A stretch of 26,006 nucleotides of DNA from IMG/VR virus record IMGVR_UViG_3300044546_000642, positions 1 to 26,006 of that record; one strand, 5' to 3'. The notes below the pieces were generated by a model. The model was not told the DNA's origin. It ran no database searches and saw only the letters and a list, made by a program, of their open reading frames with translations. Of the stretch, positions 1-9,065 are shown one piece after another. Both the position numbers and the translations under genes were made by a program. Each line of letters opens with the position of its first letter. Position 1 is the stretch's first letter. The stretch is from a virus.

Positions 1-868
1 CTCCGTCGAAGTCCGGAAAGCGTGTGAAGGCTGTTTCTGTTTCGGTGTCGGCTGTCCATTTCCGGCCCAAGCTACGTCCGGAAAATTTCGTTTCGCGGTA
101 GCTGGCGGCGGCGTGGGTCCATTTGCTAAGGGTCGGATCACCTCCGTTTGCTGGGAACCGGAGCCAAGTCCACGGTTCAATCTTGAAGGCTTGCACGCTC
201 TTGCATTGCCAAGCGTCTGCGATGGCCTCGACAATATTGGTATTTGTGCCAAAGACCCAACGTCCCTTGGTAGTGATTCCGGCGCAGAGGTTAGCCGTTC
301 CGTCCACTGCGGCGATCATGTCGCCATTCGGGGCGAGGGCGAGAAAGGCGGCGTATCCTTGCACGTTTTCCAAGTCTTTCTTCCTCGTCTCGTCCGTGCC
401 GTTTTCGGTCAGGGCATAGAGTATGTGCTGGCTGTCGCAAGTGGCTGACTTGTGAAGCTCGGACGGCTTACCGCCCCAACTGATCACGCCATTGTGGGCC
501 ATTGTCCATCCCTCGTGCCTGAATGGGTGGGTGTTCGGGATGCCTTGGCCGTGGGTGGCCGTCCGTCCGTGGATGATAACGGAGCGGTTCGGTTTATAGC
601 TTCCGGCCTGCTCGGCGCGCTTACTAATGGCGAAGGCATCGAAAGCTTGTCCTGCGTTCCTCCGGAGGGTTTGCAAGGCATCTAAGCTCTTGAATCCTTC
701 GGGCTGTAGGAAGCGGCCATGTAAGCCGTTTTGTCCGGCCTGAGCGAAGCCAAAGCCGTCCCGCTCTGATTTTTGCATTTCGAGTCGGGCGGCGATAATT
801 GCGCGTTCGGCTGCTGCTTTGTTTAGGGGTTTGGCCTGTTGGCCTGTCCATCCTGCGAGTTTACACAT
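1..868 (-). CDS. Class II glutamine amidotransferase (partial, runs off left edge)
   Basis: The frame is open from an ATG at 868 to the window edge (289 codons, no stop) and begins MCKLAGW. Class II amidotransferases use an N-terminal Cys, exposed after Met removal, to release ammonia from glutamine. Other family landmarks are visible in the right order: an HGRTATHG segment with Arg102 (compare the HTRWATHG of the PurF/AsnB type), HP at 114-115, AHNG with Asn126-Gly127, and CDS with Asp145. These match the glutamine-binding residues of the fold. It lies 37 nt downstream of the amidoligase gene on the same strand, which suggests the two act together, this protein supplying ammonia. No synthetase domain is visible in the 289 residues, so it looks stand-alone, although the C-terminus is missing. 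There is no SD; the ATG follows ACCAAACAAA. The base composition is richer in G+C than the phage late genes (for example 37 of 60 bases at 541-600). Confidence 0.88.
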   Translation of the reverse strand, partial: MCKLAGWTGQQAKPLNKAAAERAIIAARLEMQKSERDGFGFAQAGQNGLHGRFLQPEGFKSLDALQTLRRNAGQAFDAFAISKRAEQAGSYKPNRSVIIHGRTATHGQGIPNTHPFRHEGWTMAHNGVISWGGKPSELHKSATCDSQHILYALTENGTDETRKKDLENVQGYAAFLALAPNGDMIAAVDGTANLCAGITTKGRWVFGTNTNIVEAIADAWQCKSVQAFKIEPWTWLRFPANGGDPTLSKWTHAAASYRETKFSGRSLGRKWTADTETETAFTRFPDFDG

Positions 869-905
869 TTTGTTTGGTTCTTTCTGTTTTTGGTTGGTTG
901 TTGGA
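869..905 (-). promoter_or_regulatory. Non-SD leader of the amidotransferase gene
   Basis: On the minus strand this spacer has no GGAG-like SD. It is made of CCAACAACCAACC followed by A-rich DNA and ends ACCAAACAAA directly before ATG. The same end sequence and the same CCAACCAACC run precede the amidoligase ATG at 2171, so this appears to be a shared translation-initiation leader. The function is inferred from the duplication alone. Confidence 0.45.
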
Positions 906-2171
906 TTAAGCCGTGACCGTTTGCCCGGCGTTTGTATTTTCCGTGATAGTGCGGCGGCGGTAGCCTCTCAGCACTAGGTCGGACGCATCGAAGGCGGCGA
1001 CGAATTGAGCGGACATTTGTGTACCGATCCGGTCACGCGATCCCCGCGCTTTTTTGCGGAATGCGTTTAGCAGTTCGCGGAGCGTCTGCGGGTCGTTAGG
1101 TGCTGCCCAACGCGCAAAGGCCATGAAAGCATCAACGCAAATGTCGCGCTGAATCGGCGGCGGCGTGGAATGGTCGACAGTTTCGGACATTCGGGCCATC
1201 GACTGCATCAAGCGGGTCCGGAAGGCCCACTCAGAGGGTTTGCTTGTCGTCCCCCACAATCTGACTTCAACTGTTCCGGTTTCTTGCCAAGTGTTGCAAG
1301 AGACGGCTGCGGCTTTTATCCGGCGTGCTTCCGTGAAATGTGCTGGCGTGTTAGAAACACTAGACCAGCGACCATTTCGGCGGGATGCATTGGCAAGGTA
1401 GCGAAACCAAACGAGGTGCGTGCGGAAGGCGGCAAAAACTCGCGTGCCGATCTGAATATCCTTTTTGCAATTAAGGTGAATGTGACCGCCGTTTCTTTCC
1501 TGTGAGCCAATGCGGGACACTAGCTTGCACGCTTTTTCGGTGAGCAGCGGATTAACTCGGAAACGGATTTCCGGCTGTCCTCCTCCGTCACGGCCCACGT
1601 GCCAGTATTTTCGTTCCTCGCGTGCTCTGTAATAGTGGAGCGATCCGGCTTCAAGTTCACCAGAGCAGGCATAAAGCGGGAGTAGGTCGTGGTATTCCTT
1701 CCCCTCATATTTTCCCTTGTCTCCGAATAGCATATTCAGTTGGTGCTTTTCCATTCTCCGGAGGGCTCTTTCAACTCCGTATTCGGATTGATTTTGACTC
1801 TGAATCGCGTCTTCTACGAAGCGAAGAATCGTTTTGAAGGCAACCAGCTTTTTTCGGAGCAATGCGCGAAGAGCTTTCCGTCCTCGTAGAAGGGCGAAGG
1901 TTTCGCGGGTTTGCTGCTTCTTTTTTGCGGCGATTGAAAGATTCACCTGTTCGTTATGGTGCTCGATTAGGCGGTTCAAGCTCAGGTCAAAAACCTGCCG
2001 CACGCTGTCAGATAGGTAGCGCACGATCTGGTCAACATCGTATCGGTCAAGGCTCCAATATTGGTTATATTTGGCGTTTTGATTGTAGACTTCATGAGCG
2101 AGAAAGACGGCAACTTTTGCGGTCGGGTCTATGTTGGCCTCGGTCAGTTTTTTGATCTTATACGTGGTCAT
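906..2171 (-). CDS. Putative amidoligase-family enzyme (phage-type COOH-NH2 ligase)
   Basis: 421 aa from the ATG at 2171. The frame is open to 2252, but this start shares its upstream sequence with the next gene and the extra 27 codons look non-coding. Residues about 1-170 are charged and helical, with no family recognised. The C-terminal half shows the amidoligase pattern (glutamine-synthetase-like fold): a W-x-V-G-R-D-G-G segment followed by PEIRFRVNPL, then GGHIHLN with His230 and His232 (the family G-x-H-x-H motif), then GTVEVRLWGTT with Glu302 and Arg304 (the family E-x-R...T motif). Such enzymes form amide bonds with ATP, and family members in phages are often encoded beside glutamine amidotransferases. 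The neighbour at 1-868 fits this. The substrate is unknown: a peptide side chain, cell-wall peptide or small metabolite are all possible. The call rests on motifs, not on a database match. Confidence 0.72.
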   Translation of the reverse strand: MTTYKIKKLTEANIDPTAKVAVFLAHEVYNQNAKYNQYWSLDRYDVDQIVRYLSDSVRQVFDLSLNRLIEHHNEQVNLSIAAKKKQQTRETFALLRGRKALRALLRKKLVAFKTILRFVEDAIQSQNQSEYGVERALRRMEKHQLNMLFGDKGKYEGKEYHDLLPLYACSGELEAGSLHYYRAREERKYWHVGRDGGGQPEIRFRVNPLLTEKACKLVSRIGSQERNGGHIHLNCKKDIQIGTRVFAAFRTHLVWFRYLANASRRNGRWSSVSNTPAHFTEARRIKAAAVSCNTWQETGTVEVRLWGTTSKPSEWAFRTRLMQSMARMSETVDHSTPPPIQRDICVDAFMAFARWAAPNDPQTLRELLNAFRKKARGSRDRIGTQMSAQFVAAFDASDLVLRGYRRRTITENTNAGQTVTA

Positions 2172-2197
2172 TTTGTTTGGTTGGTTGGTTGGGTGTT
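2172..2197 (-). promoter_or_regulatory. Non-SD leader of the amidoligase gene with CCAA tandem repeat
   Basis: On the minus strand the spacer contains CCAACCAACCAACC and then AAACAAA before the ATG. The final ACCAAACAAAATG is identical to the leader of the amidotransferase gene at 868-880. There is no SD. This repeated context was used to choose the 2171 start. Confidence 0.45.
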
Positions 2198-2290
2198 CTA
2201 TTTTTTGGTGATAGTGACGGCCAGCAAGACTGCCGGAATCACTAGAAAGCATATAAGCTCAAGGGCTGTCTGGAGTGTTTCGAGGTGCAT
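2198..2290 (-). CDS. 30-aa single-span membrane peptide
   Basis: A short frame begins with ATG at 2290 and stops with TAG at 2198. The product starts MHLETLQTALE, then has one hydrophobic stretch at about residues 11-27 (ICFLVIPAVLLAVTI), and ends TKK. The acidic N-terminus and Lys-Lys C-terminus suggest a bitopic peptide with its C-terminus inside, but this is inference. Its ATG lies 3 nt after the stop of the upstream 66-aa gene and its stop lies 26 nt before the amidoligase ATG, which suggests one operon. No family is recognised. It could be a membrane anchor or partner for the amidoligase system, or chance; the hydrophobic profile and spacing favour a gene. Confidence 0.45.
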   Translation of the reverse strand: MHLETLQTALELICFLVIPAVLLAVTITKK

Positions 2291-2293
2291 GGT

Positions 2294-2494
2294 TTAGGGT
2301 TTAACGTTGCGGAGAAATCCATCGGCCTTGGAAAGAATCAAAGGCGAGATTCGGAAAGGAACATCGGCAAAGGCGGCGAAGGTTTCCAACGTGGCGTGCG
2401 TTCCATTTTCGGGGTTGTGCATTTTCAAGGAGCGCAGATACATGGATGCAAGTTGCAATCCCATTCCGGAAGCGGTTCTTTTTGTCTTGGTCAT
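2294..2494 (-). CDS. Hypothetical protein, 66 aa
   Basis: ATG at 2494, TAA at 2294. The product begins MTKTKRTASGMG and is basic at the N-terminus, with a probable amphipathic helix (LQLASMYLRSLKM) and no transmembrane span. No family is recognised. It is the first gene of the apparent minus-strand operon leading to the amidoligase and amidotransferase, ending 3 nt before the 30-aa membrane peptide. No SD is seen. Opposite-strand frames cover the same DNA, but the minus-strand reading fits the operon and its spacing. It could be a regulator or a substrate of the downstream enzymes; neither is shown by the sequence. Confidence 0.5.
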   Translation of the reverse strand: MTKTKRTASGMGLQLASMYLRSLKMHNPENGTHATLETFAAFADVPFRISPLILSKADGFLRNVKP

Positions 2495-2530
2495 GGTGAA
2501 ACTCTAAATCCGGATCGGTGAAAGGGCAAG

Positions 2531-2548
2531 AAATAGTTTGATCTATTT
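2531..2548. repeat. Inverted repeat AAATAG-6-CTATTT
   Basis: Perfect 6-bp arms with a TTTGAT spacer, 37 nt upstream of the ATG of the 66-aa gene. The position in front of the operon fits an operator for a dimeric regulator, but no regulator gene is visible in the window. Confidence 0.35.
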
Positions 2549-2642
2549 TGAAACTTTATTTCCTCACCTTGGCATGGTTCCTGCTAGGCCGGAAACCACC
2601 CTGTTCTGCGACCTGATAACCTTGTTAATTTTGCGATATGAG

Positions 2643-2747
2643 GCGTTTTTATTTTTTGAATGTGTCACCATAGCCAACCACTGCCAGATCTGCGTAAGTT
2701 ATTGATTTGCAACGGCTTACGCTTACGGAGTAAATAGATAAAAACGC
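2643..2747. repeat. Nested inverted repeats (10-bp outer, 7-bp inner)
   Basis: GCGTTTTTAT at 2643-2652 is the exact reverse complement of ATAAAAACGC at 2738-2747. Inside it, GCGTAAG at 2692-2698 pairs exactly with CTTACGC at 2716-2722. This could fold into a 105-nt structured RNA or a DNA cruciform. The function is unknown. Confidence 0.45.
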
Positions 2748-2890
2748 TTTATAGGGCAAGTGAGTGAGTTATCACATTGGCCCCGATATTTGCAACTCAA
2801 GGCTCACATCGTGGCCGCAACTTGGGAAAGCATTCTCAGCCTATTTGCAATTATGTAATCAGTTGTCAAATTCCCTGGCTGGAGCGTGCA

Positions 2891-2958
2891 TTCAATAAGT
2901 AAGAATTGATTAAGCAGTATCGCCGGCCAACCGATCAAAGTGCATTTGATTTATTGAA
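2891..2958. repeat. 8-bp inverted repeat with adjacent 7-bp direct repeat
   Basis: TTCAATAA at 2891-2898 is the exact reverse complement of TTATTGAA at 2951-2958. GTGCATT occurs just before or near each arm (2886-2892 and 2940-2946). Structure only; no function can be assigned. Confidence 0.3.
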
Positions 2959-2977
2959 ATCGCCCAAGGCTGTGATG

Positions 2978-3085
2978 GAGCAAAGCGAGAAGTGAAAACC
3001 AAGTCGCGCTAGGCTGTTGTTACACTGCCTAAAGGCGAGCGATAGCGAGCTTACAACGATCTACAACATATACGAGCGAAGCGAG
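2978..3085. repeat. Three copies of GAGC-(G/A)A-(T)-AGCGAG
   Basis: Copies: GAGCAAAGCGAG at 2978-2989, GAGCGATAGCGAG at 3037-3049 and GAGCGAAGCGAG at 3074-3085. The spacing is uneven (59 and 37 nt), so this is not a CRISPR array. The copies could be protein-binding sites or iteron-like elements. Confidence 0.4.
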
Positions 3086-3109
3086 TTATCCTAATGATCA
3101 ACTGCATTT

Positions 3110-3123
3110 AAAAAAAATTTTTT
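3110..3123. other. A8T6 tract
   Basis: Eight A followed by six T, in otherwise AT-rich non-coding DNA. Such tracts bend DNA and are common near promoters, origins and phage ends. No GC stem precedes it on either strand, so it is not a standard intrinsic terminator. Confidence 0.35.
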
Positions 3124-3189
3124 ACATATTTGAGATATGATATTGTATTCCGTGATAGTGAATTGAAATTTTGCAATATGGTAGGAGAG

Positions 3190-3389
3190 TCGCAAGAGGC
3201 TGCGATCATTCCGGCCCAATGGGCATGATGATTATGCATTATGCGTATTGTTTCGCGGCTTCAAGGCCAGAAATAGAGATCTAATCTATTCTAAGTTGTT
3301 GAGCCTCAAGGGTTTACGCTTGCAATGTGTCAAAGCTTGTGACATTTGGACGATACCGCACCCCCATTTTTAATTTAGGCCAAGGGGGT
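3190..3389. repeat. Cluster of short perfect hairpins
   Basis: Four small inverted repeats within 200 nt: TCGCA/TGCGA at 3190-3205, GCCC/GGGC with a 3-nt loop at 3214-3224, TGTCA/TGACA at 3328-3344, and ACCCCC/GGGGGT at 3360-3389. None is followed by a clear T-run. Each is short enough to arise by chance; the clustering is what is notable. Confidence 0.3.
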
Positions 3390-3507
3390 AAATCAGGAAA
3401 GCTGCAATACGTATAACCCGCTCGCATTTTTCTGCCAAAATCTTTTTCAGAACCAGAATGAAAATTGAGTACTAAATCTTAAATAGCTTAAAGCACACTT
3501 GAACTAC

Positions 3508-3553
3508 TGTCGAAAAAGTACGCAAATATCGACATATCTTCCCAACGTGTCGA
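3508..3553. repeat. TGTCGA sites: inverted pair plus a third copy
   Basis: TGTCGA at 3508-3513 faces TCGACA at 3529-3534, and another TGTCGA lies at 3548-3553. Possible binding sites just downstream of the peptidase gene (in the minus-strand sense). Confidence 0.25.
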
Positions 3554-3616
3554 AGCCGTAAACACATACCAATGTCCGCTTTAGTATACACAACCTAACA
3601 TTGCGTATAGCACACT

Positions 3617-3937
3617 TTACATTTGATTGGAAAAATCTGGAGCACACAGCCCTGTTCCCATCTGCTCAACCACTTTGCACATTGCTGTTGAAATGGTCTT
3701 ACCCAATGCGTCAATTGTCTCCTCCTGAATGTCAGGCAGACAAGCGTGGGCTATCTCATGGGCTACAAGCTCTACACCATACCGTTCAAGTGCATCTCTC
3801 TTGAAGACAATCTCTCGCTTCTCGTAGTCACACACTCCAACACTACGCTTGAGTGAAGGCTTTCCTGTTTTAACAATCCAAACTTCATTGCGAATTTTGA
3901 TTTGGAAATTGAGTTGTTTCTTCTTCTTGGATGGCAT
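3617..3937 (-). CDS. Minimal zinc-metallopeptidase-like protein (HEXXH)
   Basis: 106 aa. Residues 56-73 contain VELVAHEIAHACLPDIQEE, with a HEXXH motif (His60-Glu61...His64). Glu72/Glu73 downstream is a candidate third zinc ligand, as in ImmA/SprT-like minimal peptidases. The N-terminus is very basic (MPSKKKK), and residues 10-50 look like short beta strands. There is no signal peptide, so a cytoplasmic location is expected. The C-terminal 25 residues are not recognisable. It is the last gene of the late cluster and sits behind its own promoter candidate with a leader of about 220 nt. No SD is seen. The fold call is good; the target (a host repressor, restriction factor or phage protein) is unknown. 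Confidence 0.68.
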   Translation of the reverse strand: MPSKKKKQLNFQIKIRNEVWIVKTGKPSLKRSVGVCDYEKREIVFKRDALERYGVELVAHEIAHACLPDIQEETIDALGKTISTAMCKVVEQMGTGLCAPDFSNQM

Positions 3938-5663: not shown

Positions 5664-7354
5664 ATTACGTTGGTGTAGCTGCTAATCCAAGTTTTTTCTT
5701 TTGGTTTATTTCCAAAAACTGAATCCATAAAGTTTCTAAGCTCTTCGTCCACCCTTGCATCCTTGGAATCTTGAACGGCTCGGTCAACGTCTCGGCCCAT
5801 TTGCTCTGTCCAGTAGGCTACAGCAATGGCTAGGGCATCCAAGCGGTCATCCTGACCCAAAGCACCACGATCCTTGGTGACACGGCTTAGCTGGTAGAAA
5901 AGCTGGTATCTCAGTGCCATATCTTGTGGTAGGTGCTGGTTTCCACGGTAGTCAGTTTCGATAAGCTTTTTATCGACAACAAGACGGTGCTGGTTAAGAA
6001 CTGGTTCCAAGGTGTCGATAATACGTAACTCCTTCTGTTTACTGTGCTTAACCTCCTCAACTGTACATGGATACAGTTTTCCTAGCACTGGCTTGAGAAG
6101 CTGCCCGAACATACCTCCACCGTAGTTTTCTTCGATAATGATTTTTGTTACGTTTTGGCGTTTGGCTATGATTGCAAGAGCTTTAAGGGTGTCTTCAGTG
6201 TAGCCGCTAGTAAAGCCACCAGACTCCATCAGGAACAGCATTCCGTGGAGGAACTTGATAACACAGTATGCAGTTTCGTCCCTGCCCCTACCTGATGGGT
6301 CAATGGACATAATGCTTCCTTCAAACGGCAACCACTCCTCTTTACTGACAAACATGGGACTGTGGTAGCGATCCCCGCTCAGTCCGACACAGGGGAGGTC
6401 ATCAATGACGTAATCAGGGGAACCAGCCCAAGCTACCTTCTGGGGAGCAAGCTGTGGATTAAGGGACATTACGCACAAATCGCTAAGCTTCAATGGGTAA
6501 CGCTCAATATCGGCAAGGCTAGTGTCTAGCATGAACTGAAGCTGGAAACCACTCCTGCCGTAACTGGCTTCACGCTCCATAAGGTCAAGGTCACTGAAGC
6601 GTTTAGGGTCAGTGGTCTTTCCGGATTGCAGTGGGTCTTTTTCCAAGACCTCAGTAATCATGGGAGCCAACTTTTCTCCGTAGCTTATTATCTTATTTTC
6701 ATCTGGAAACCTAGCAGGCCAAACACGGCACACATAGCCTCGCTCTTGGAGCTTGTTGTAAAGAGACTCTTCGCACTGTGGGGTTCCAAGGAACATGATC
6801 TTGCCGTCTGGTTTCAGCACGGCTTCAAACTCCTTAACCGCTTCGCCAATACGATCCCGCATTCCCTGAGTCATGGAGTTGTTGGCACTTTCTACGTCAT
6901 CGGCAATAATGATGTCGGCGCGACTTCCGGTAATCATTCCGGTAATACCTACTGACTTAACAGAGGCACTGTGAGCCGCACCTGATGTGCCTACGTCAAA
7001 GGCAATCTTACTGCTTCGCTGATCCTCGCTTGGCTTGAGGTGCTGGAGGATTGGCATCTCCGAGATAAGTCGGAGGGTAAAGGTGCTAAAGTCATCGGCA
7101 CGAGCTTTGGAAGCTGATACGACCAAGAACTTTAGTTCAGGATTTAGAAGAAGCTGGTGACAAACGAACGCACTAGTGACGTAGCTCTTACCAACGCCAC
7201 GAAAAGCTTCGATAATAGATCGTTTCGGCGCATTTTGAATGAAGTCCGCAATATCATATTGGATCGGTGTCGGGGCTGGTAAGTTAAGGTGTTTCCAGCA
7301 GACAAAGAGGAAGTTTCGGAAATCATGGAGACGAGGATCAATTGATACGTTCAC
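5660..7354 (-). CDS. terL: Terminase large subunit (T7 gp19-like)
   Basis: 564 aa from GTG at 7354 (T7 gp19 is 586). This start has AAGGAG upstream and gives MNVSIDPRLHDFRNFLF, which matches the usual start of T7-type large terminases; a TTG at 7396 would add 14 residues inside the upstream gene. Visible motifs: IQYDIADF near 31-38, Walker A FRGVGKS at 51-57, Walker B IIIADDVE at 148-154, then the nuclease domain with SIDPSGRGRDET, IIIEENYGG and DDRLDALAIAVAYW acidic residues. It packages DNA at the portal, using ATP, and cuts the concatemer. It overlaps the methyltransferase gene by 17 nt and the next membrane gene by 4 nt. Confidence 0.95.
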   Translation of the reverse strand: MNVSIDPRLHDFRNFLFVCWKHLNLPAPTPIQYDIADFIQNAPKRSIIEAFRGVGKSYVTSAFVCHQLLLNPELKFLVVSASKARADDFSTFTLRLISEMPILQHLKPSEDQRSSKIAFDVGTSGAAHSASVKSVGITGMITGSRADIIIADDVESANNSMTQGMRDRIGEAVKEFEAVLKPDGKIMFLGTPQCEESLYNKLQERGYVCRVWPARFPDENKIISYGEKLAPMITEVLEKDPLQSGKTTDPKRFSDLDLMEREASYGRSGFQLQFMLDTSLADIERYPLKLSDLCVMSLNPQLAPQKVAWAGSPDYVIDDLPCVGLSGDRYHSPMFVSKEEWLPFEGSIMSIDPSGRGRDETAYCVIKFLHGMLFLMESGGFTSGYTEDTLKALAIIAKRQNVTKIIIEENYGGGMFGQLLKPVLGKLYPCTVEEVKHSKQKELRIIDTLEPVLNQHRLVVDKKLIETDYRGNQHLPQDMALRYQLFYQLSRVTKDRGALGQDDRLDALAIAVAYWTEQMGRDVDRAVQDSKDARVDEELRNFMDSVFGNKPKEKTWISSYTNVI

Positions 7355-7970
7355 AGAGTATGGTTTCTCCTTCAGGGCCAGTACTGAACCGCACAATGTA
7401 CTTGTTCAGGTTGAGCCAGTTAAAAATCTGTTCGCAATGGGGATGTCCCTTCCAGATTTCCACACTAAGCAACTGAGGACGGCTTACCATATCGTCAAGC
7501 ACGGCCCATTCCATCCCTTCGCAGTCCAAGACCATTGCATCAATCTTTCCATCGTCGATCTGAGAGAAAGGAATAAGCTCAACATCGACAGAATCTCCGT
7601 TTGATGGGGTTGGTGACCAAGTTCCATCAATGTAGCTTGATCCGTTGTTCATCTTGAGATTAAACTTCCCATCGCACTGTCCTTTAAAGCCGACAGCCTT
7701 TTTGATAAGCTTAACTTCAGGCATTCCCTCTTTTTCTGGCATTTCAATAGGAACAGCAGCCGCCATGATGGGGTTTGGTTCAACAAGAATCATCTTATCG
7801 ACCAGATTTTTGTGGTAAACGTCAGGAGCAGCACTAATGTCCATCGGCCCAACACCACATTCGCAAAACGTCCGAAAACGGTTTTTACTGGGATTGATTT
7901 CTCTAATAAGGCTCATTAGATAAGAAATATCTGAGAACCACCGAATTTGTCTTACGTGATTTAAGTTCAT
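7338..7970 (-). CDS. FkbM-like SAM-dependent methyltransferase
   Basis: 210 aa with a class I methyltransferase layout: a glycine motif ECGVGP at 37-42, an acidic strand end ILVEPNP at 61-67, and VLDCEGMEWAVL at 147-158, which matches the FkbM D-x-E-G-x-E signature. FkbM enzymes commonly O-methylate sugars. The gene overlaps the glycosyltransferase stop by 4 nt (ATGA) and TerL by 17 nt, so it is co-translated with both. With the glycosyltransferase it could modify a host surface glycan, for example to block superinfection, or decorate a virion part. The acceptor is not evident. Confidence 0.75.
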   Translation of the reverse strand: MNLNHVRQIRWFSDISYLMSLIREINPSKNRFRTFCECGVGPMDISAAPDVYHKNLVDKMILVEPNPIMAAAVPIEMPEKEGMPEVKLIKKAVGFKGQCDGKFNLKMNNGSSYIDGTWSPTPSNGDSVDVELIPFSQIDDGKIDAMVLDCEGMEWAVLDDMVSRPQLLSVEIWKGHPHCEQIFNWLNLNKYIVRFSTGPEGETILCERIN

Positions 7971-9031
7971 AGGATTGTTTTTACTTTGTTAAGGACTCTT
8001 TCTGGATCAATGGTTCTCAAGACTTCGCATTCCAGTGTTTTAGAACACGGTTTGTCGTGAGGAAGTAACCCATTTTTGTTGTTGGAATGATGAAAACACG
8101 GAGCGCACTCACCGACAGCTTGAAAACACCACACTGATTTAAAGTAGCTGGTGCGGTACTGCCACTTGAACGGCCCATACAAACCTAATGCGGGGATGTT
8201 CATAGCTCCAGCAAAATGAATACTGCTGGAATCCGGCCCAATAATTAAATCGCAAGTTTTGAGAAATGATACGCTTTCCTCCCAAGAAAGTCCTGACTCA
8301 GAAAGGTTTATCAGGTTTGGGTTCTTGTCAGCAATGGCTATTGAATCGGGTTCCCCCAAAAGAACAACTTCGTACCCATCCCTGAGAAGCATTGTCACCA
8401 AAAGACATGAGTTTTGGTGAGGATAACACCTGACAGGGCTAGACGCACGCCACTGGTAACCGATCCGCTTGACTCCTTGTTTCTTCGGCCAGCGGGTGTG
8501 CATCAAGCTAACTTGATCTTCGTTTGGGACGTAAATAAGGTCTTTTTTGATTTGTTCGACATTCGGGAGAGGGATACCAGCCTTCCAAAACATAGCGTCC
8601 ACAGCATGAAAACCGTTACTGTGCTCCACAGCACCTTCAAGGTTGATGACTTTGGCGTATTCCGGAACATCCGCAACCTTGAGGGGAAAATTCAGAACAA
8701 CATCCACAGCAGGGCAGTTCTTGGCAACAAAATGATAAGAACTGTGGCAAGCAAGGTGCAGTTTACAGTCAGGCCAGCGGCGTTTGATTTCCTGAAGGAA
8801 GGGGAAACAGAACAAAATGTCTCCTGCTCCTCCAGCCCTAGTTACTAAGATGTTTGTTTTGGAGTGGTTGTAAGTGGAATCAAAAGGCTGGAACTCCACA
8901 CCGTCAACACGCACGTTTCCATCAGTTTTAGCTGCGTAAAACGCAACTTGTTGTCCTTCAACCCAATACGCAGTATCAGGCTCAAGCTCTTGTCCACCGG
9001 ACACAGGTTCAAAAAAAGTAAGAAGTCTCAT
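7967..9031 (-). CDS. Glycosyltransferase family 9 (heptosyltransferase-like)
   Basis: 354 aa from ATG at 9031, chosen because AGAGGA lies just upstream; a TTG 7 codons earlier is less likely. Residues 1-57 form a small beta-rich extension with no known family. The GT9/GT-B core begins at NILVTRAGGAGD (60-71), the loop typical of ADP-heptose:LPS heptosyltransferases. The sugar-nucleotide region shows DLIIGPDSSSIHFAGAM at about 261-277, then LGLYGPF. A Cys-rich segment (GECAPCFHH...PCSKTLEC) follows. GT9 enzymes add heptose-type sugars to LPS core at the inner membrane. It sits between HNH and FkbM, splitting TerS from TerL. A cell-surface target in a Gram-negative host is inferred. Confidence 0.85.
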   Translation of the reverse strand: MRLLTFFEPVSGGQELEPDTAYWVEGQQVAFYAAKTDGNVRVDGVEFQPFDSTYNHSKTNILVTRAGGAGDILFCFPFLQEIKRRWPDCKLHLACHSSYHFVAKNCPAVDVVLNFPLKVADVPEYAKVINLEGAVEHSNGFHAVDAMFWKAGIPLPNVEQIKKDLIYVPNEDQVSLMHTRWPKKQGVKRIGYQWRASSPVRCYPHQNSCLLVTMLLRDGYEVVLLGEPDSIAIADKNPNLINLSESGLSWEESVSFLKTCDLIIGPDSSSIHFAGAMNIPALGLYGPFKWQYRTSYFKSVWCFQAVGECAPCFHHSNNKNGLLPHDKPCSKTLECEVLRTIDPERVLNKVKTIL

Positions 9032-9065
9032 TTGTCCTCTTTTTAAGCGCAATCAGCGCGGGTTG

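Follow-up and report, generated by a model that had tools for sequence, protein, structure and literature searches.

A two-enzyme amidoligase-like/class II amidotransferase cassette in at least four types of phage, usually accompanied by tiny membrane peptides

The window, i.e. the whole stretch of 26,006 nucleotides analysed here, is a 26-kb record of an uncultured virus with a minus-strand T7-type late module (TerL, holin, CHAP endolysin, tail, internal virion, capsid, scaffold and portal genes). At its low end lies a cassette that we read as a pared-down module which forms carboxamides with glutamine as ammonia source, is held at the membrane and plausibly modifies the host envelope; we assign to this reading as a whole a probability of roughly 0.4. 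It draws on gene content, catalytic residues, the fold of the ligase model, the constant pairing of the two enzyme genes and the recurrence of small membrane peptides next to them, all observed in the present work. The presence of single-transmembrane (TM) peptides of about 30 residues before the first and after the last enzyme of most cassettes is described here for the first time. The cassette strips the amidoligase/amidotransferase system to two enzymes, which the tiny membrane peptides accompany in unrelated phages. The travelling peptides point to the membrane, and so small a gene set is open to direct expression and testing.

Layout of the cassette

Four open reading frames (ORFs) stand in file on the minus strand, at the sites given in a preliminary description of this DNA: a 66-aa ORF (2294-2494), a 30-aa single-TM peptide, MHLETLQTALELICFLVIPAVLLAVTITKK (2198-2290), the 421-aa divergent amidoligase (906-2171) and an amidotransferase ORF of 289 aa that is open at the edge of the window (2-868), its 3' part lying outside. 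Contig L002/L004, which is 100% identical to the window over the cassette, completes the amidotransferase to 300 aa (L002:6304-7206).

The amidotransferase

The product of 2-868 (minus strand) can be identified from its sequence as a class II (Ntn) glutamine amidotransferase. The class II assignment proposed earlier stands for the family, since all 17 homologues match the GATase_6 profile (best E 1e-8), but the window protein itself, with 26.7 bits (E 6e-6), falls 0.3 bit short of the curated cut-off of 27; GATase_4 matches as well. The residues singled out in the preliminary description, Cys2, Arg102, Asn126-Gly127 and Asp145, are correctly located and invariant in the 17 homologues, and they are the glutaminase-site residues of class II enzymes. 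A sequence search against solved structures returned a weak match to penicillin acylase only, which is consistent with the Ntn-hydrolase superfamily but was set aside as evidence. The nearest match in an isolate phage is in Arthrobacter phage Ottawa/Kharcho, with 31% identity.

The amidoligase

The protein encoded at 906-2171 (minus strand) gave no confident match in Pfam, NCBIfam or PHROGs, no usable match in PADLOC, and none among solved structures by sequence search. The expectation that it would match Amidoligase_2 (PF12224) failed: the window protein has no match, and 3 of its 17 homologues match below the Pfam gathering score, the best at 18.4 against 22 bits. The alignment of these homologues nevertheless contains the invariant blocks GELE, DGGGQxE, NGGHIH and GTxExR, with E172/E174, D195/E201, H230/H232 and E302/R304 unchanged in all 17 sequences; the GGHIH (228-232) and E302/R304 residues had been read correctly from the window alone. 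The order of the motifs, ExE, D..E, HxH and G(S/T)xExR, is that of nine phage Amidoligase_2 proteins.

An AlphaFold2 model computed from the 17-sequence alignment (mean pLDDT 82) replaced an earlier one from five sequences (pLDDT 69, much of the core below 50). In this model, residues 164-382 form a predicted glutamine-synthetase-like core, in agreement with the fold expected beforehand, preceded by a helical N-terminal part of about 160 residues that is absent from most of the phage amidoligases compared. The best solved matches of the core were E. coli YbdK (1r8g; Z 12.8, rmsd 3.6 Å over 210 residues, 16% identity), Dop (Z 11.8) and glutamine synthetases (Z 11.7), all with Z scores above the background quoted by the tool for models without a clear match. 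The same families ranked first, more weakly, in a Foldseek search of the PDB (best E 3.2e-3). In the BFVD collection of viral structures, phage amidoligases came top (E 3.5e-7), and the named proteins among the 28 viral matches at E <= 1e-3 were mostly amidoligases.

Placement in Amidoligase_2 by profiles alone was tried and dropped. An hhalign comparison of the ligase family with the nine phage amidoligases scored 24.6 in a register that looked right, but the reversed control scored 24.4 and 2 of 200 column shuffles exceeded 24.6. As the comparison did not rise above these controls, fold and motifs are the basis of the assignment. Taken together, the fold matches, the sub-threshold Pfam matches in 3 of 17 sequences and the control-level profile-profile score place the protein, as modelled, in an amidoligase-like family of glutamine-synthetase fold outside PF12224 as currently defined. 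The family defined here is unrecognised by Pfam, NCBIfam and PHROGs, and the 50,697 isolate phage genomes searched contained no relative at E <= 1 with either of two queries.

It should be noted that one BFVD protein matching the ligase fold, A0A2L1J0D3 of Mycobacterium phage Tesla, is named 'glutamine amidotransferase domain protein'; the name may come from a neighbouring gene or from a fusion.

Pairing of the two genes and distribution in phages

A scan of 2.9 million viral contigs yielded 25 loci from each of the two genes. Wherever the contig reached far enough, the partner gene was adjacent and on the same strand, whichever gene the search had started from, and in ten long records both enzyme profiles matched side by side; the co-occurrence anticipated in the preliminary description thus holds in all informative relatives. 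The ligase gene precedes the amidotransferase gene, the order being reversed only in L095/L105.

The carriers represent at least four phage types. The first is the T7-type group of the window, and the second (L092, L098, L100, L103 and L122) has the cassette adjoining the terminase small subunit gene, with a DnaB-like helicase also nearby where identified. Larger genomes, on contigs of 48-74 kb (L088, L090 and L094), form the third, and L105 the fourth. Neither enzyme gene was present in the available records of 13 more distant TerL relatives, and the record of a nearer one, L012, ends within the ligase gene. Among 84,980 species genomes, a single pattern scan with the ligase gave no relative, and the corresponding scan with the amidotransferase gave two remote matches only, so that no prophage or host can be assigned.

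The small membrane peptides

The 30-aa peptide gene (2198-2290, minus strand) ends 26 nt before the amidoligase gene. Homologues occupy the same place in L005, L006, L007, L009, L012, L014 and L020, and in L005, L006, L009, L014 and L020 its amino-acid sequence is conserved in spite of many silent changes. The neighbouring 66-aa ORF (2294-2494, minus strand), in contrast, is missing from close relatives that retain the rest; in L005, L006 and L009 the region aligned with it does not contain the ORF. It is therefore either lineage-specific or no gene. Of the two tiny partner genes originally proposed, only the 30-aa one is thus conserved; the real second partner is a 32-aa hydrophobic peptide outside the window, which in L002/L004 starts one base after the amidotransferase gene.

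The generality of this arrangement was assessed in 15 cassettes by counting ORFs of 20-60 aa with a hydrophobic stretch of 17 residues, which had to end at most 100 nt before the first enzyme gene or to start at the end of the last one; expected counts were obtained by resampling these flanks with a first-order Markov model. An upstream TM-like peptide was found in 11 of the 15 cassettes (0.1-0.24 expected) and a downstream one in 10 (0.12 expected), counts that are non-independent because the cassettes are related. In L092, L096, L097, L098 and L100 the start codon of the downstream peptide overlaps the amidotransferase stop codon (ATGA, GTGA or TTGA), and several downstream peptides are accordingly predicted to be translationally coupled to the enzyme. 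On these grounds the peptides are likely to be functional partners of the enzyme pair, although they are not strictly required, as both are absent in L087, L090 and L094.

One might ask whether the peptides are themselves the substrates, a conserved acidic residue being amidated so as to switch the phage's own membrane peptide on or off in a toxin-like manner. Nearly every upstream peptide, and the majority of the downstream ones of the second group, does have a Glu within its hydrophobic stretch or bordering on it, although the peptides are otherwise dissimilar. However, the downstream peptide of the window phage has no Glu, only Asp8, the upstream peptide of L103 has none in its TM stretch, the three cassettes just mentioned lack both peptides, and a Glu may also serve contacts in a TM peptide of this length. 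We consider this idea very improbable; if true, the phage would encode a system that amidates membrane peptides of its own making and so switches how they act on the host membrane.

Comparison with known systems

The clusters of phiEco32/LUZ24-type phages (UFV-P2, SU7, CW02, BA6 and KZY1) likewise combine a class II amidotransferase with an amidoligase whose motifs come in the same order. They add a COOH-NH2 ligase, an ATP-grasp enzyme, a protein of about 190 aa and often GGCT, whereas the window cassette has the two enzymes only. Their amidotransferases, of about 440 to 670 aa where read, also exceed the 300 aa found here, and the window-type cassette has in addition a helical ligase N-terminus of about 160 aa and flanking TM peptides. 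In isolate phages such as UFV-P2, SU7, CW02, BA6, LAh_9 and KZY1, the amidoligase and amidotransferase occur with some of the COOH-NH2 ligase, ATP-grasp and GGCT genes (see also PMC3890496). As to such partners here, there is no other sizeable ORF from the SprT-like gene to the integrase in L006 and L009, and no COOH-NH2 ligase or ATP-grasp neighbour was recognised at the other loci, where the ORFs around the pair were read and in part profile-searched.

Closer in gene number is the gp65-gp66 pair of Arthrobacter phage Ottawa/Kharcho, in which a carboxylate-amine ligase gene precedes that of a short amidotransferase, but that ligase is shorter (324 aa) and could not be aligned by profile to the window ligase. 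E. coli YbdK has the glutamine-synthetase-like fold in common with residues 164-382 of the window ligase at the low identity given above, and acts without an amidotransferase partner. In MurT-GatD of S. aureus, also composed of a ligase and an amidotransferase, MurT is a relative of the Mur ligases and GatD a class I (triad) amidotransferase, and the likeness is analogous at most. MurT-GatD amidates a component of the S. aureus wall (PMC3267633).

Proposed function

The two genes very probably encode an ammonia-using, amide-forming enzyme pair. The class II amidotransferase would hydrolyse glutamine by means of its N-terminal cysteine (Cys2, after removal of Met1), and the ammonia would be handed to the amidoligase of glutamine-synthetase fold, which is expected to activate a carboxylate with ATP and convert it into a carboxamide. 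The one or two single-TM peptides encoded alongside may tether the enzymes at the inner membrane or aid the binding of a membrane-bound substrate.

Phage amidoligase/amidotransferase systems have been annotated for a long time, but the published accounts consulted gave no proven substrate for them. That the target lies in the host envelope is a tentative proposal, to which we would give slightly less than even odds; it derives from the membrane peptides, from a published proposal and from the fact that the window phage also encodes a GT9 heptosyltransferase-like protein, so that envelope-active genes are present. Two sources cite Iyer et al. (2009) for the proposal that the phiEco32 amidoligase alters the cell wall against superinfection (PMC10580990, PMC11318856). 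The likeliest target would be an envelope carboxylate of the host, e.g. in a peptidoglycan precursor, and its amidation might exclude competing phages or tune the wall for the phage's own lysis.

The same chemistry could instead be directed at a soluble metabolite or a small-molecule product, in auxiliary metabolism, nitrogen assimilation or a secondary-metabolite pathway, with the TM peptides as unrelated passengers. Amidoligases of the YbdK/GmaS fold act on small molecules, and YbdK is among the best structural matches of the window ligase. Moreover, amidoligase and amidotransferase genes of a Planctomycetes phage have been read as auxiliary genes of nitrogen metabolism (PMC10945688). Yet no pathway enzyme (GGCT, ATP-grasp or COOH-NH2 ligase) stands beside the pair in the relatives of the window, and unrelated passengers would not be expected to recur on both sides in distant phages, which makes a soluble target unlikely, though it keeps some weight.

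The GT9 gene (7967-9052, minus strand; E 6e-13) and an FkbM-methyltransferase-like gene (7338-7970, minus strand; E 0.0018) both lie within the late module of the window. Their sequences suggest modification of envelope or virion glycans, perhaps in a host with LPS. The cassette carrier L098 also has an FkbM methyltransferase, beside a DUF6492 protein.

Genomic position and promoter-like elements

The cassette had been described as lying beside a T7-like late module. This is true of the window contig, where about 1.1 kb of noncoding DNA separates the two, but in relatives the cassette adjoins integrase and RNA polymerase genes. In L006 and L009 the late side runs TerL, holin, endolysin, SprT-like gene and more than 1 kb of noncoding DNA; then follow the cassette (TM peptide, ligase, amidotransferase, TM peptide), further noncoding DNA, a tyrosine integrase, small ORFs, a dCMP deaminase and a T7-type RNA polymerase. 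On a circularised map the cassette therefore comes after the late end and heads the early side. From this position beside the integrase and RNA polymerase, that is, from gene order only, the cassette is probably made early in infection, or else in the lysogen.

An early slot beside the RNA polymerase would also suit an enzyme pair that amidates a host or phage protein, at a side chain or the C-terminus, and redirects the host early, as T7-type host-takeover genes do, and Dop, an enzyme of the ligase fold with a protein as its substrate, is one of the best structural matches. On the other hand, no protein partner was identified, and unrelated phages carry the pair beside the terminase small subunit gene and not in an early T7-type slot. 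We regard a protein target as distinctly improbable, and an envelope target as the preferred reading.

The noncoding zone that separates late module and cassette (2495-3616) has no conserved ORF, but contains conserved blocks in the alignment with L005, L006 and L009, and is a candidate terminal-repeat or regulatory region. A 9-mer, CACTATCAC, is found, always on the coding strand, in this zone (3152-3160, minus strand; same place in L005, L014, L106 and L108), over the 3' end of the TM-peptide gene, ahead of the amidoligase (2208-2216, minus strand; kept in L005, L014 and L020), over that of the amidoligase gene, ahead of the amidotransferase (943-951, minus strand; kept in L106, L108, L020 and L113), and after the cassette, against a mean of at most 0.2 per record in shuffled records. 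It resembles the CACTATAG core of T7-type promoters, and may be described from its sequence as a promoter-like element. Codon coincidence at the two coding sites was considered and rejected, as the same codons are used across lineages, the element is confined to the coding strand and it recurs in noncoding zones. Segments L004:8924-9011 and 3160-3070 of the window (minus strand), from the noncoding zones on either side of the cassette, both contain CACTATCAC and after it an AT-rich tract, GCAG and AACTCGCT; the arrangement looks as though a single regulatory block had been duplicated around the cassette.

Between the endolysin gene and the noncoding zone, the window has a candidate small SprT-like metalloprotease (3617-3937, minus strand; HEIAH motif, E 0.0025), 86-95% conserved in the nearest relatives. 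Finally, L094 (12624-13193) and L105 (10440-11012), phages that otherwise differ, both have an HhH DNA-glycosylase-like gene (phrog_11575, with no assigned function) at a distance of a few kb from the cassette.
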